From a bacterium (lineage in GTDB: Bacteria; Bacteroidota; Bacteroidia; NS11-12g; UBA955), in NCBI GenBank assembly GCA_029945665.1, contig JAQSCZ010000021.1:1-44505 (forward strand): a stretch of 44,505 nt of DNA. Direction: 5' to 3'. Every line of letters starts with the position of its first letter. The first letter of the stretch is position 1. The translations under genes were made by a program, and so were the position numbers. Positions 34,433-39,763 of the stretch are shown piece after piece. The notes beneath the pieces are model-generated. The model had not been told where the DNA came from, did not search any database, and saw only the letters and a program-made list of their open reading frames with translations.

Positions 34433-35332
34433 TTAATATTTAAACAGAATAATGGTTCTGTTAATATCCTTCCCAATAAAGCTGCCTAATGCATTACTAA
34501 TATTACCCTTGACCAAAGTTGGTTGGGAAAAAGGATCATTTTGGTAAAACATATGTTCTATCAAGCTTGCATAATATAGATATGAATCATAAGAATACTG
34601 TTCCAATTCAATACTCAATTTCTTTGTTTTTTTGGTCGCTGTGTTCGAAATTGCGGATGTGCCAAAACTAAAATAAATGGTTGAATTGTTAAAATACAAA
34701 TCAGAAAATAAAATATGCTTTTTTGAAAATTTATTATTTTCATCCTGAATTAACAGTGGATCGATGGTTTCAACATCAATCCACTCCTCCACTAAGGCAG
34801 TATCTATAGCACCGCCACCATTGACAAGGTATGTTTCATAACTATGTTTTAATTTTAATCCATAATAATTTGAACACAATTGCAAATCAGTTAGTTGGTA
34901 TTTAATTCGGAAAAAATTCGATTTGCCTTGAAAAAAAATACTATCAGTTTTAACAAGTGCTGCTGAACACTTTAAAGGACAGCTATCTTGCATCCAATAG
35001 ACCTTTTGTGGTGTAGAAATTTTTAAGATATAACTCTTGGATGCTTCCGCCTTAAAGAATGTCGTCTGATAAAATCCATTGATTCTTGGATTAAGTGTCT
35101 CAAGAAGTATGGTATCTTTACTAAATAATTCAACAATCGCATTATTTTCGGTAATCGGTTTAGAATTATCATTTATTGATTGGGTGTAGGTCAATTTTAC
35201 AGATATAAAACTATCTGCACATAAATTTGAATTAACAACAAGTATCCGCTCTTCATTAGGAATTTTAAATTCGATTTCCTTTTTACAAGAGAAAAGAAGT
35301 GTTAAAAACAATATGTAGGTTATGTGTTTCAA
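34433..35332 (-). CDS. DUF4249 lipoprotein, partner of the TonB receptor
   Basis: This 299-aa lipoprotein (signal YILFLTLLFSC, Cys16) belongs by pattern to DUF4249, a Bacteroidota family usually encoded next to a TonB-dependent receptor. The N-terminal beta domain starts KIPNEERILVVNSNL and runs through SVKLTYTQSI, NNAIVELFSKD and a GFYQTTFFKAEASKSYIL strand set, like a transthyretin-type sandwich. Its start is TTG at 35332, which overlaps the receptor stop (TTGA) by 4 bases. It probably sits on the outer membrane and helps the receptor bind or hold a ligand, which is unknown. Confidence 0.87.
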   Translation of the reverse strand: MKHITYILFLTLLFSCKKEIEFKIPNEERILVVNSNLCADSFISVKLTYTQSINDNSKPITENNAIVELFSKDTILLETLNPRINGFYQTTFFKAEASKSYILKISTPQKVYWMQDSCPLKCSAALVKTDSIFFQGKSNFFRIKYQLTDLQLCSNYYGLKLKHSYETYLVNGGGAIDTALVEEWIDVETIDPLLIQDENNKFSKKHILFSDLYFNNSTIYFSFGTSAISNTATKKTKKLSIELEQYSYDSYLYYASLIEHMFYQNDPFSQPTLVKGNISNALGSFIGKDINRTIILFKY

Positions 35333-37935
35333 AAATTGATTTTATAGCTAATATTAGGAAGTATAGGGAATAAACTAACCAATTGCAAAACGCGATCCCC
35401 TTTTTGATTATATGTTGGTGTTACATAGAATGCATTTAACCTATTGTAGACATTATATGCTCCAAAGGTCCAAATTCTCGTGTAATTTGATCTTTGCTTT
35501 TTGTAATTAATACATAAATCCATGCGGTGATAATTAGGAAATTTATAAGCATTTCTTTCGCCATAAATATAAACCGTATTGTCTGGAGAGAGGCCTGAAT
35601 TAGCAAAATAAACTTGAACTGGTAAGGTGGTATTGGCCCCTGTTGTATAAACCCAAGTCATAGTCCCTTCAAATCTATCGTTAAATTTATGATTAACGAC
35701 TAATGCTAAATTATGTCTTCTATCGTATTTATAAGGAAATATTTTACCAGCGTTAATGGCATTAAATTGCCTATTATTCCAACTATAAGTATAACTTAGC
35801 CAACCTGTAGTTTTACCTATTCTTTTTTCAAACAAACTTTCCAAACCATAAGACCATCCTCTTCCTGTAGTCACTTTATTTTCCCAATTGTTGTCATTTC
35901 CTATATAATTTACTTGTTCTTTATATTCAATTAAATTCTCCATGTTCTTATTGAACCCTTCTAAATTAAATAGATACTTTCCTCTTGTATAACTTAATCC
36001 TAAACTCGTAATATTTGCGTATTCCGGTTTAATTTTATTGGTGGAAGGCAGCCATAAATCAATTGGCAAACCTGCTGAAGAACTAGTGAGTAGATGTAAG
36101 AACTGCATCGCTGTGCTATAGGAAGCATGTATTAGCATTCTTTTATGTGGTTTATAATTAACATTAATCCTTGGTTGCATTTTTGAATATTGAGTTCCAA
36201 GTAAATTAAATTGAGCATAATGCCCTCCAATAGTTGTACTTAGCAATCGATGTAATTTTATATAAACATCGGTATAGGCATTAAATTCTATACTGTTAAT
36301 TGCTTCCTTTGACGAGGGTATGCTACTTGTAATATTTGAAGAGGATGTGCTTACTTCTCTGGCAAATTGATGAAACACAAAGCCACAACCCGATTTAACA
36401 TTCAACCAATTGAGGGGTTTATATTCGATATTATACATAACATTCCAATCTCTAATAATCGAAATGAAGCGGTAATTATATTTTGTTTCAAAAGCTTGAG
36501 AATCATTTTTTTCAGTATAGGCATAATTAGATTCATTTCCGAAATTATACTTGCTATAGGAAGCCAAGAACCAGCCAAAAAGCTTTGGTGAAATAACATG
36601 GTTATACCTCATTGAGGCAATTTTATTTCCCCAAAAAATATTCTGATCGTCTTTTTCTGTAACTACTTTCTCAGGATCTCGGGCTTTGAAGGTGTTTTTT
36701 ATAAATGAATTGTCAATTCCTGAGTATGCCGTTAATGACAATTGATGCTTTGAATTAAATCGGTGATTAATCTTACCGTTAAAATCGTAAAAATAATAAC
36801 TTGAATAAATTGGAGAAAACTGATTTTTGAAAAAATTACTTTGAGAAAATGAATTTAGAATATCGAGATAAGACCTCCGTCCAGATAAAACCATCGTCGT
36901 TTTTTTATTCTTAGAAATAGGTCCATTGATGGTTAATTTAGATGCTAATACGCCAATCGAAGCTTGGTAATTTAGCTTTTTTGTATTGCCATCGATTGTT
37001 CGCACGTCAATTACACTGCTCAATCTACCGCCATACCTTGAACTCATTCCGCCTTTTATTAAGGTCACGTCTTTGACAACATCAGAATTAAAAACACTAA
37101 AAAAACCGTAAATATGTGAAGGGTTATAAACTGGAACATCATCTAATAAAATCAAATTTTGGTCGGGTCCACCTCCTCTTATATTGATACCCGTTGTTCC
37201 ATCATTACCTGCACTAACACCAGGCAGCAATTGGAGCGATTTGATAATATCAGTTTCGCCAAATAACATTGGAAACTGCTTGAGTGTGCTGGAATTAAGC
37301 CTATATTCATCTGGTTTAAATAGTGTGTTATTATCTGGTTTGGAATTAATGGTAAACATTGGAAAACTCAGACTAGCTTTTAAATTAACACTAAAAATAA
37401 AATTTGAGTTCAACATGAAGATTGCATTCACACTCTGATAACCAACATACGAGAATACAAGTTTAATACTATCCTCATCCAAGGTTAAACTATAATAACC
37501 ATCTTGATTTGTAGTAGTGCCCTTGAGCGAATATAAATTGTAAATATTTGCATTGATTAACTTTTCGCCAGTAGATTCATCGTAAATGAAACCCGAAACT
37601 GTATATTTAATAGCCTTAGAAAGGGGCTTTGTAATAATTATATTTTTGCCGTAAAGCAAACTGAAATTAAGTTTATGGGGCTGTAGCAAAAGCACTAAAA
37701 CAACACCCAACTCTTCTTCTTTCACTTTTAAAGAAAATTTACCATTTGGCATTATTCTTTGATTGTAGTTAAAAGTTACCCCAGTAATTTCCTGGATTTG
37801 CTTTAATATCTCAGGAACAGTTTTCTTTTTAATTGATAAAGAAATACGTTTACCTAATAAATCGTTCTGTGCATTTAATCGAGGAGCAAATACACAACAA
37901 AACAAACAACATAATAAAACAGTCCTGATAAACAT
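35329..37935 (-). CDS. TonB-dependent receptor with STN domain
   Basis: This 868-aa outer-membrane importer starts with a signal peptide (ends RLNAQ, about 23), then an STN signalling domain (about 27-100, RISLSIKKKTVPEILKQIQE), a carboxypeptidase-regulatory-like beta domain (about 110-195, VSGFIYDESTGEKL), a plug with LQLLPGVSAGNDGTTGINIRG and QNLILLDDVPVYNP, and a 22-strand barrel ending ISYKINF. The STN domain reports ligand binding to FecR, whose gene is directly upstream (31-base gap). The ligand may be a siderophore, glycan or peptide; DUF4249 partners do not settle it. Confidence 0.95.
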   Translation of the reverse strand: MFIRTVLLCCLFCCVFAPRLNAQNDLLGKRISLSIKKKTVPEILKQIQEITGVTFNYNQRIMPNGKFSLKVKEEELGVVLVLLLQPHKLNFSLLYGKNIIITKPLSKAIKYTVSGFIYDESTGEKLINANIYNLYSLKGTTTNQDGYYSLTLDEDSIKLVFSYVGYQSVNAIFMLNSNFIFSVNLKASLSFPMFTINSKPDNNTLFKPDEYRLNSSTLKQFPMLFGETDIIKSLQLLPGVSAGNDGTTGINIRGGGPDQNLILLDDVPVYNPSHIYGFFSVFNSDVVKDVTLIKGGMSSRYGGRLSSVIDVRTIDGNTKKLNYQASIGVLASKLTINGPISKNKKTTMVLSGRRSYLDILNSFSQSNFFKNQFSPIYSSYYFYDFNGKINHRFNSKHQLSLTAYSGIDNSFIKNTFKARDPEKVVTEKDDQNIFWGNKIASMRYNHVISPKLFGWFLASYSKYNFGNESNYAYTEKNDSQAFETKYNYRFISIIRDWNVMYNIEYKPLNWLNVKSGCGFVFHQFAREVSTSSSNITSSIPSSKEAINSIEFNAYTDVYIKLHRLLSTTIGGHYAQFNLLGTQYSKMQPRINVNYKPHKRMLIHASYSTAMQFLHLLTSSSAGLPIDLWLPSTNKIKPEYANITSLGLSYTRGKYLFNLEGFNKNMENLIEYKEQVNYIGNDNNWENKVTTGRGWSYGLESLFEKRIGKTTGWLSYTYSWNNRQFNAINAGKIFPYKYDRRHNLALVVNHKFNDRFEGTMTWVYTTGANTTLPVQVYFANSGLSPDNTVYIYGERNAYKFPNYHRMDLCINYKKQRSNYTRIWTFGAYNVYNRLNAFYVTPTYNQKGDRVLQLVSLFPILPNISYKINF

Positions 37936-37966: not shown

Positions 37967-38863
37967 TTATTTTATGTCGACTTTGGTATTTAAAGTTCGG
38001 CTAAGCAATTCGGCTGCTTGTGAGGCAGATAAATGATCAAAAGTCAAGGTCAATTTTTCATCATTTAGCTGTTTATCGTATTCGAATTTAATATTGTATT
38101 GGTTTTCAAGTGTATTAATGATTACCAATAAAGTTTCGTTTTCAAACATTAATTTGGAATCTAGCCAAGATAAAGTCGCGGATTTAATTGAAGATTTAAC
38201 AAAAACAGATTCATTTTTGGAGGTAATCACTTCCCCTGGTATTAAAGCCAACTTGCCTTTAGGTGAAGTAAAAGTAACATGACCTTCTGCTAACGCAATC
38301 TGAAATGGTAAATTCACTCTGTTTCGCACATTAAATTTGGTTCCTGTAACATGAATTAAGCCATGGTCTGTTTTAACTAAAAAAGGTTTATCGTTATGAT
38401 TCACTTCAAAAAAAGCCTCGCCAATTAATTTCACTTCCCTTTCATCGGAATTCAAATCATTTGTAATTAATTTCGAAAAGCTATTCAATGTGATTATTGA
38501 TCCATCAGGTAAATTAAATTTCTTCAATGCCTTACCACTAGTGTATACAAACTCGTTTTGTGTCGACCTTGAGTTGTATTTCCAAAGTCCGAATGCTAAC
38601 GAAATAACTAAAACTGCTGCAATAGCCCATCTTGTAATCAGAGGAATAATCGTTGCCCTTGTAATTGATTCCTCTTTTGTTTCACCTAATTGGGACTTTA
38701 ATTCTAACCAACTCTTGTGTGTATTCGCAGTTGGATACTGAAATTGATTGCTAAGGTTTAAGATTTCCTCTATTTTTTTCGACTCACTTTCAGACAATAC
38801 GCCTTCTTTAGCAAACGAATTGCTAATAAAATTAGGTATCTTATTCTGAGAGAAATTATTCAT
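37967..38863 (-). CDS. fecR: FecR-family anti-sigma/sigma regulator
   Basis: The 298-aa inner-membrane protein has an N-terminal cytoplasmic part (1-78), one helix (about 82-98, WAIAAVLVISLAFGLW), and a periplasmic FecR domain (KKFNLPDGSIITLNSFSKL, VKLIGEAFFEVNHNDKPFLV, HVTGTKFNVRN) with the C-terminal DUF4974 secretin-like domain (LVIINTLENQYNIKFEYD). FecR normally binds an ECF sigma factor and frees it when the receptor STN domain signals. No sigma gene is in this window. The gene begins with ATG right after the TAG of a 55-codon ORF in the same frame, so the two may be a coupled pair or one interrupted gene. Confidence 0.93.
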   Translation of the reverse strand: MNNFSQNKIPNFISNSFAKEGVLSESESKKIEEILNLSNQFQYPTANTHKSWLELKSQLGETKEESITRATIIPLITRWAIAAVLVISLAFGLWKYNSRSTQNEFVYTSGKALKKFNLPDGSIITLNSFSKLITNDLNSDEREVKLIGEAFFEVNHNDKPFLVKTDHGLIHVTGTKFNVRNRVNLPFQIALAEGHVTFTSPKGKLALIPGEVITSKNESVFVKSSIKSATLSWLDSKLMFENETLLVIINTLENQYNIKFEYDKQLNDEKLTLTFDHLSASQAAELLSRTLNTKVDIK

Positions 38864-39031
38864 CTATTTCGAAAATCTTACCGACTGAGGAAAATTTTGT
38901 TGTACAAAACCCAAAAATAGTTGATTGGCTGGATTGTTTTTCAACCAATTTTTCAAAAATTGTTCTTCCTCATTTGAGCAAAGGCCTGCCAAATATTTAG
39001 TAAAAATGTTGGCTTGAATTTCTTCTTTCAT
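38864..39031 (-). CDS. 55-aa ORF in frame with fecR, FecR N-terminus-like
   Basis: This short ORF, ATG at 39031 to TAG at 38864, encodes MKEEIQANIFTKYLAGLCSN followed by EEEQFLKNWLKNNPANQLFL and a short tail. The pattern Y-L-A-G-x-x-S-x-E-E-E...W-L...N-P-N is that of the start of many FecR proteins, the helix that holds the sigma factor. The next codon after its stop is the ATG of fecR in the same frame. It could be a separate small anti-sigma-like protein, the product of a nonsense mutation in a longer fecR, or a leader for coupling. The 150 bases upstream (39032-39181) hold no gene or clear promoter. Confidence 0.65.
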   Translation of the reverse strand: MKEEIQANIFTKYLAGLCSNEEEQFLKNWLKNNPANQLFLGFVQQNFPQSVRFSK

Positions 39032-39181
39032 AGTGAATGGTGTGATTTATATGTATTAAAACAATAATAATCCTTTCACCCCCTAAGACCCACTAGACAC
39101 AATTTCATATTATGTTATATCTATTTGATTTACTGATATTTAAATATTTTCAATAGACCAATATTTATTTAGCTTCCGCAT

Positions 39182-39763
39182 TTACGAATGCATTGACCTT
39201 AAAACTTTAACCGCGTCAGGTCCTTCATTGAATAATAAATCAAGCACCGATAAATGCGGAATAAAATCAAGTTTCTCTTGAAAAACTTGGTAATACAAAA
39301 CAGGTTTCAACTGAATTTCTGATACTACGGCTGCACTAACTTCAACTAAGATTGACAATTCTAATTTTAGGCAGACTATAATTTCTTGCAGAATGGCTAA
39401 ATTAAGATCCCATAAATACTCATATTGAGATTTAAATATGATCTCGAACCTATAGCCATAATATTCGTAAAAAGGGCTTTTTCCATAAGCTGTTTTGAGG
39501 GCATTGATTAATTGATTCTGCCAATGGGTAGCGTAACTTATTTTAACGCCTTTGTAACTTCCTCCCGTCGAATTGTGAATCACCGGAACGGTAAATATTT
39601 TTGCTCCTTGGAAGGTTCCGTAAATTATTCTATTTCTATTGGTTTGCTTTGCGAAATTTTGTTCGTCTGCCAAAATTAATTTTGGCTTATCAACAACTGC
39701 AGCAAACCAATCAACGGTTGGCGCCATTTGAAGATATAAAATTGAATCAGTTTCTATGCCCAT
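39182..39763 (-). CDS. WbqC-family protein
   Basis: This 193-aa soluble protein matches the WbqC family by pattern: ILYLQMAPTVDWFAAVVD (replacing the usual P-P..YF.L), DEQNFAKQTNRNRIIYGT, the sugar-like IFTVPVIH, YATHWQNQLINALKTAYGKSPFYEYY, and LWDLNLAILQ. WbqC proteins lie in O-antigen loci of some bacteria and are thought to act in sugar or amino-sugar synthesis, but their reaction is not settled. The gene overlaps folK by 10 bases, ending the six-gene operon. The function is inferred from the family only. Confidence 0.88.
   Translation of the reverse strand: MGIETDSILYLQMAPTVDWFAAVVDKPKLILADEQNFAKQTNRNRIIYGTFQGAKIFTVPVIHNSTGGSYKGVKISYATHWQNQLINALKTAYGKSPFYEYYGYRFEIIFKSQYEYLWDLNLAILQEIIVCLKLELSILVEVSAAVVSEIQLKPVLYYQVFQEKLDFIPHLSVLDLLFNEGPDAVKVLRSMHS

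Follow-up and report, generated by a model that had tools for sequence, protein, structure and literature searches.

A 55-codon gene abutting fecR probably encodes a stand-alone FecR-type sigma-binding half-domain in an order of Bacteroidia

What is one to make of a 55-codon ORF whose TAG stop codon is followed immediately, and in the same frame, by the ATG of fecR? This arrangement was noticed in the window (the whole stretch of 44,505 nucleotides analysed here), and the original prediction left several readings side by side: a distinct mini anti-sigma protein, a longer FecR interrupted by a nonsense codon, a stop-start coupling or read-through device, or, should the codons prove unconserved, mere noise. 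The ORF, hereafter called mini, occupies positions 39031 to 38864 of the minus strand (ATG...AAA TAG, 55 codons plus stop), and its TAG does abut the fecR ATG at 38863, the TAG-ATG junction spanning 38861..38866 on the same strand. Taken together, conservation, purifying selection, a half-domain match and an AF2 model make it probable that in mini the part of FecR that binds sigma has its own gene, i.e. that mini is a stand-alone FecR-type N-terminal anti- or pro-sigma half-domain, belonging to a cell-surface signalling system composed of a FecI-type ECF sigma factor, mini, FecR and a TonB receptor.

Is mini a gene at all? Annotation models do not recognize it: the 55 residues had no Pfam match above chance (best E 0.25), no NCBIfam model matched the window copy, and neither did Pfam DUF4880 (PF16220), which describes the proteobacterial FecR N-terminus. 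Among relatives, DUF4880 reached the mini of locus L038 with E 0.007 (16.6 bits, under the cut-off of 25), and that of L047 matched an NCBIfam anti-sigma model, again below cut-off (E 5e-5). Conservation is nonetheless extensive. A FecR search followed by tblastn within the loci found the orthologous fecR directly preceded by 55 codons in 14 of the 17 genomes of the genus; the genomes without mini (G002, G004 and G009) are all fragmented and 68-83% complete. Within the genus, identity to the window copy is 67-91% for mini and 34-56% for FecR. A mini profile matched 60 of 70 genomes of the family and, once per genome, 87 of 108 genomes of the order, these order matches comprising 59 from the window's own family, f1, and 28 from its sister family, f2, all in open frames of 53-133 aa. 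Differences at codon positions 1, 2 and 3 number 811, 440 and 1960, the dN/dS values against the window copy are 0.03-0.12 in the eight of 12 comparisons with unsaturated dS, and the residues conserved throughout the order include invariant ones. Noise is thereby answered, since order-wide conservation at so low a dN/dS lies far beyond chance: mini is a real coding gene under purifying selection. Its neighbour is just as constant, because fecR adjoins mini in all 46 loci inspected, namely 26 of 30 from f1 (L045, L048, L049 and L050 being left out as near-copies) and 20 of the 28 sister-family matches.

Does the junction then betray a broken or read-through FecR, or two genes translated in concert? 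In the genus set of 14 loci (the window plus L051-L063), the distance between the mini stop codon and the fecR start is -1 to +7 nt in every case, the two being in many cases adjacent or overlapping as TAATG, a geometry that fits translational coupling. The frame of fecR relative to mini is by contrast not fixed, being 0, +1 and +2 in six, four and four loci, respectively, and mini ends with TAA in 11 loci and with TAG in three. Because the frame varies, a conserved fusion is excluded, and with both stop codons and all three frames represented there is no single fused protein that all loci could yield. The in-frame TAG-ATG of the window is thus all that speaks for a longer fecR that is read through or has been interrupted by a recent nonsense mutation or an assembly error; against it stand the variation in frame and stop codon and an ORF that is separate across the order, and both the nonsense and the read-through models were rejected on these grounds, their chance of being right being next to nil. 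Of the interpretations put forward at the outset, then, the distinct small protein and the stop-start geometry have held up, and the interrupted FecR and the read-through device have not. The same geometry, found in 14 of 14 loci, could also be expected of a leader ORF whose translation merely couples or regulates that of fecR, with the peptide itself having no function. This explanation is very improbable in the face of dN/dS values as low as those given above, of protein conservation with invariant residues throughout the order, and of homology between mini and a known functional domain.

Which domain this is becomes apparent outside the order. There, all 56 matches to the mini model in a sample of the class (rows counted by hand) fell in frames of 173-418 aa and all those in a sample of the phylum in frames of 273-418 aa, and each of the 16 inspected was confined to the N-terminal ~70 residues of a protein judged FecR-like by eye. 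The canonical FecR cytoplasmic domain was therefore considered as two halves, scored separately with a set of canonical FecRs that had been picked by their resemblance to mini. The first half was found in 46 of 46 minis, in none of 26 f1 FecRs and in 11 of 20 f2 FecRs; the second in none of the 46 minis, in four of the 26 f1 FecRs (weakly) and in none of the 20 f2 FecRs. Aligned by hhalign with canonical FecR N-termini, the minis gave a probability of 99%, and the tryptophan of helix 2 is present in all 46. The FecR N-terminal pattern originally seen in mini (YLAG...EEE...WL...NP, corresponding to the YLxG..s.eE...W..NP of the FecR sigma-interaction domain) is thus borne out, and the accompanying remark that fecR has a cytoplasmic part of its own is true as well, except that in f1 this part lacks the very half-domain that mini carries. 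Since the matches outside the order sit at the N-termini of FecR-like proteins and the f1 FecRs have lost that half-domain, mini looks like the FecR sigma-binding domain turned into a separate gene. The simplest history would be duplication followed by loss from the f1 FecR, because the f2 FecR keeps a domain of its own that is full-length but diverged. A canonical FecR paralog encoded elsewhere in the window genome has, by eye, an intact domain.

The predicted structure is compatible with this assignment. AF2 models mini as three helices (residues 2-14, 20-32 and 34-46) with a pLDDT of 81, and the top match among solved structures is RsiW from the SigW-RsiW complex, a weak match of a kind that small helical proteins produce easily (Foldseek, E 2.6 and probability 0.54; VIA, Z 6.0 and 2.4 A over 50 residues). 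A search of solved structures by sequence (A3) returned no match to mini, the best being glutathione transferases at E 0.37. Zinc-binding class I anti-sigma factors of the RsiW type carry an HxxxCxxC motif; mini does not, because it has a single cysteine, the conserved C18.

What does mini stand next to? The mini chain of the window has no FecR domain by Pfam; the transmembrane segment and the periplasmic FecR domain sit on the separate protein of 298 aa encoded by fecR (37967..38863, minus strand), in which half-domain scoring and Pfam delineate a short cytoplasmic stub with the second anti-sigma half only, a transmembrane segment (by eye) and periplasmic FecR and FecR_C domains (PF04773, E 7.6e-15; PF16344, E 1.4e-9). 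It is followed by a TonB-dependent outer-membrane receptor of 868 aa (35329..37935, minus strand), the likely signal input, with Plug, TonB_dep_Rec_b-barrel and CarbopepD_reg_2 above the Pfam cut-off and an STN signalling domain below it (E 0.089). Upstream of mini, likewise on the minus strand, lies a WbqC-family gene (39182-39763; PF08889). In genera g11 and g14 (L042-L050), the gene after fecR encodes a protein that starts with an LYFxPNxGQ-type motif and is not a TonB receptor, so the signal input may differ there. Three g9 genomes (G027, G028 and G029) have fecR and no detectable mini; in their loci (L259, L258 and L260, respectively), the FecR N-terminus carries two to four tandem copies of the remaining half-domain, EAASNDAAWERM, as if it had been amplified to compensate for the missing mini.

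If mini binds a sigma factor, which one? No sigma gene was seen among the ORFs of the window, read by eye. In f2, mini is immediately preceded by a sigma-like ORF in all 19 loci that have upstream sequence, fecR follows in 20 of 20, and both sigmas scanned, those of L093 and L085, scored above the TIGR02985 cut-off. The f2 gene order is accordingly FecI-type sigma, mini, fecR and, where the contig allows, a TonB-receptor-like ORF (identified by eye; the one scanned, in L089, had no Pfam match). The sigma-mini-fecR order recurs within the window's family in genus g8 (L035, L036); in the rest of the family the sigma gene is unlinked and usually comes directly after recQ. The window genome itself has two TIGR02985 sigmas above cut-off, one beside its canonical fecR and the other an orphan, L125 (G000:C25:15934-16473), flanked by recQ and infB (both named by eye). 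Identity to the g8 operon sigma is 48% for the orphan and 39% for the other. In a sigma tree of 74 chosen loci, four of them without a sigma (L093, L220, L221 and L223), the g8 sigmas fall inside the group formed by the orphan sigmas of the family, a placement that has starred support, and this group is joined by 12 of 15 f2 sigmas (92/89, not starred), L085, L089 and L100 being placed elsewhere. A relative of the orphan occurs in 61 of 69 genomes of the family, in G013 solely by way of the canonical paralog. Judged from sequence and tree, the recQ-linked orphan is the ortholog of the operon sigma that is adjacent to mini in f2 and g8. No ATG is present near the beginning of the L125 frame, whose first common start codon is a TTG inside region 2; a rare start codon or a mis-assembly may account for this.

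An alignment of upstream regions revealed a promoter-like element before mini, TTAGGGG-N15-TTGTTTT (39058..39086, minus strand), which is the sole match in the window even when one mismatch is allowed (0.16 expected). In the form TTRGGGG-N15-TTGTWTT it precedes mini in 13 of the 14 genus loci (L014 deviates in the last base), and in other genera the same pattern or close variants of it stand before mini. The 17 genomes of the genus contain 51 exact matches, versus one for the reversed control; once the 13 in front of mini, which had served to define the pattern, are set aside, 38 remain. Among 192 genomes of the class outside the order, the count of 47 against 35 for the control (by hand) is near control level. 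None of the 20 f2 loci has the exact pattern, and in many of them a looser GGGG...TTGTATTA can be made out by eye between sigma and mini. When 32 loci with the pattern were read, it was found to precede mini in ten, the ribonuclease Z gene rnz in seven (L225, L237, L239, L245, L249, L255 and L256) and lpxA in three (L230, L240 and L251), mostly at 30 nt or less from the start, and one rnz and one lpxA example were confirmed by NCBIfam. An element shared by mini, rnz and lpxA suggests a small conserved regulon, and we infer, from co-occurrence only, that the orphan sigma reads it. In many species (L009 and other genus loci), the element ends 6-9 nt before the mini ATG; the mRNA would therefore be leaderless, or nearly so, if this is a true -10 element.

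How might these parts work together? In the available portion of a 2022 review (PMC9249621), residues 1-59 of Escherichia coli FecR (9-59 for the interaction) bind FecI and turn it into an active sigma factor, nonsense mutations in fecR codons 82 and 202 result in inducer-independent FecI activity, the natural fragment is set free by proteolysis, and the Pseudomonas equivalent can inhibit instead. Because mini matches this fragment in size as well as in sequence, it can be read as a sigma-binding subunit with a gene of its own, FecR acting as the gate at the membrane, although both the binding and its sign (activation or inhibition) are things that we infer from sequence. Mini would bind region 4 of the orthologous FecI-type sigma as a soluble subunit, after the manner of FecR residues 9-59 and FecI, its own gene supplying the peptide in place of proteolytic release. 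FecR, no longer holding this piece covalently, would decide between a free mini-sigma complex and one tethered to the membrane, by means of its remaining cytoplasmic half and upon signalling by the TonB receptor, and TTRGGGG-N15-TTGTWTT would be the promoter from which the sigma transcribes mini, fecR, the receptor and a small number of further genes. Counting against this reading are the three g9 genomes with fecR and no detectable mini, two genomes (G031 and G039) that retain the sigma and in which neither mini nor FecR was detected, the diverged domain that the f2 FecR still possesses, and a poor AF2 model of mini joined to the FecR stub. In its most ambitious form, the proposal is that this order of Bacteroidia has swapped the signal-triggered proteolytic release of a FecR pro-sigma peptide for a ready-cut gene product of ~50 residues that serves as a permanent soluble subunit of the orphan sigma, with FecR as membrane gate, in a three-part switch acting on genes of the envelope (lpxA) and of RNA processing (rnz) through a dedicated TTRGGGG-N15-TTGTWTT promoter; taken as a whole, this is tentative and on balance somewhat unlikely.

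Could mini instead be a plain soluble anti-sigma factor that, without any involvement of FecR, feeds back negatively on the orphan sigma, its link to fecR being a matter of operon history? This is quite possible, if short of probable. The promoter-like element sits between sigma and mini even where the two genes are adjacent, so that mini would rise with active sigma; the closest solved fold is that of an inhibitor, RsiW, and the sub-threshold NCBIfam hit of the L047 mini is to an anti-sigma model. Yet an independent factor fits poorly with fecR adjoining mini in every inspected locus, or with the two highly complete genomes that keep the sigma and in which neither mini nor FecR was detected (G031, 95%, and G039, 99% complete); adjacency and joint absence together suggest a joint function. 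Such a function could also take the form of a composite, in which the sigma can be held only by a single domain that mini and the FecR stub build jointly. Complementary loss, with the first half in mini and a trace of the second in the f1 FecR, and the one-to-one stop-start geometry would agree with it; however, the f2 FecR retains most of its own domain, and when the two cytoplasmic parts were joined by reading through the TAG, the AF2 model was of low confidence and without confident packing (pLDDT 68, pTM 0.30). The poverty of this model leaves the composite domain unsupported, and we regard it as unlikely.

The putative, separately encoded sigma-binding subunit bears on two questions that reach beyond this order. 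So far, the ~50-residue fragment of FecR as a natural active form, be it activator or inhibitor, has been argued from E. coli and Pseudomonas truncations; nature having made the fragment a separate gene throughout an order, the question of activation or inhibition becomes directly testable. In the available part of PMC7406223, moreover, a class I anti-sigma gene is found near 6% of Bacteroidetes ECF sigmas, compared with 32% overall. Small anti-sigma ORFs without a Pfam or NCBIfam match, together with sigma genes relocated away from their partners, offer one concrete cause for the lower figure. A literature search, from which subscription journals were mostly missing, found no description of a stand-alone FecR anti-sigma domain, a small FecR pro-sigma protein or a split anti-sigma factor.

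Set against known systems, mini shares with E. coli FecR 1-59/9-59 its length of about 50 residues, the part of FecR concerned, a FecI-like ECF sigma as presumed partner and a TonB receptor/FecR setting; it differs in being a separate gene beside an f1 FecR devoid of that half-domain, and not a product of FecR proteolysis. The window fecR likewise departs from FecI-FecR-TonB systems with an adjacent sigma gene, for it has no FecI-type sigma next to it. With class I anti-sigma domains of the RsiW and RskA type, mini has in common a predicted three-helix fold resembling SigW-bound RsiW, but it lacks a transmembrane part and, at 55 aa, is about half as long as the average class I domain (~101 residues; PMC7406223, available part). 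Fused sigma/anti-sigma proteins of the IutY type (PMC9249621, available portion) are similar in that the genes of a cell-surface signalling system have been rearranged, with the difference that there sigma and anti-sigma have been joined, whereas here the anti- or pro-sigma protein itself has been split. In E. coli this piece is generated by cleavage of FecR; the bacteria of this order thus seem to have a gene for it.
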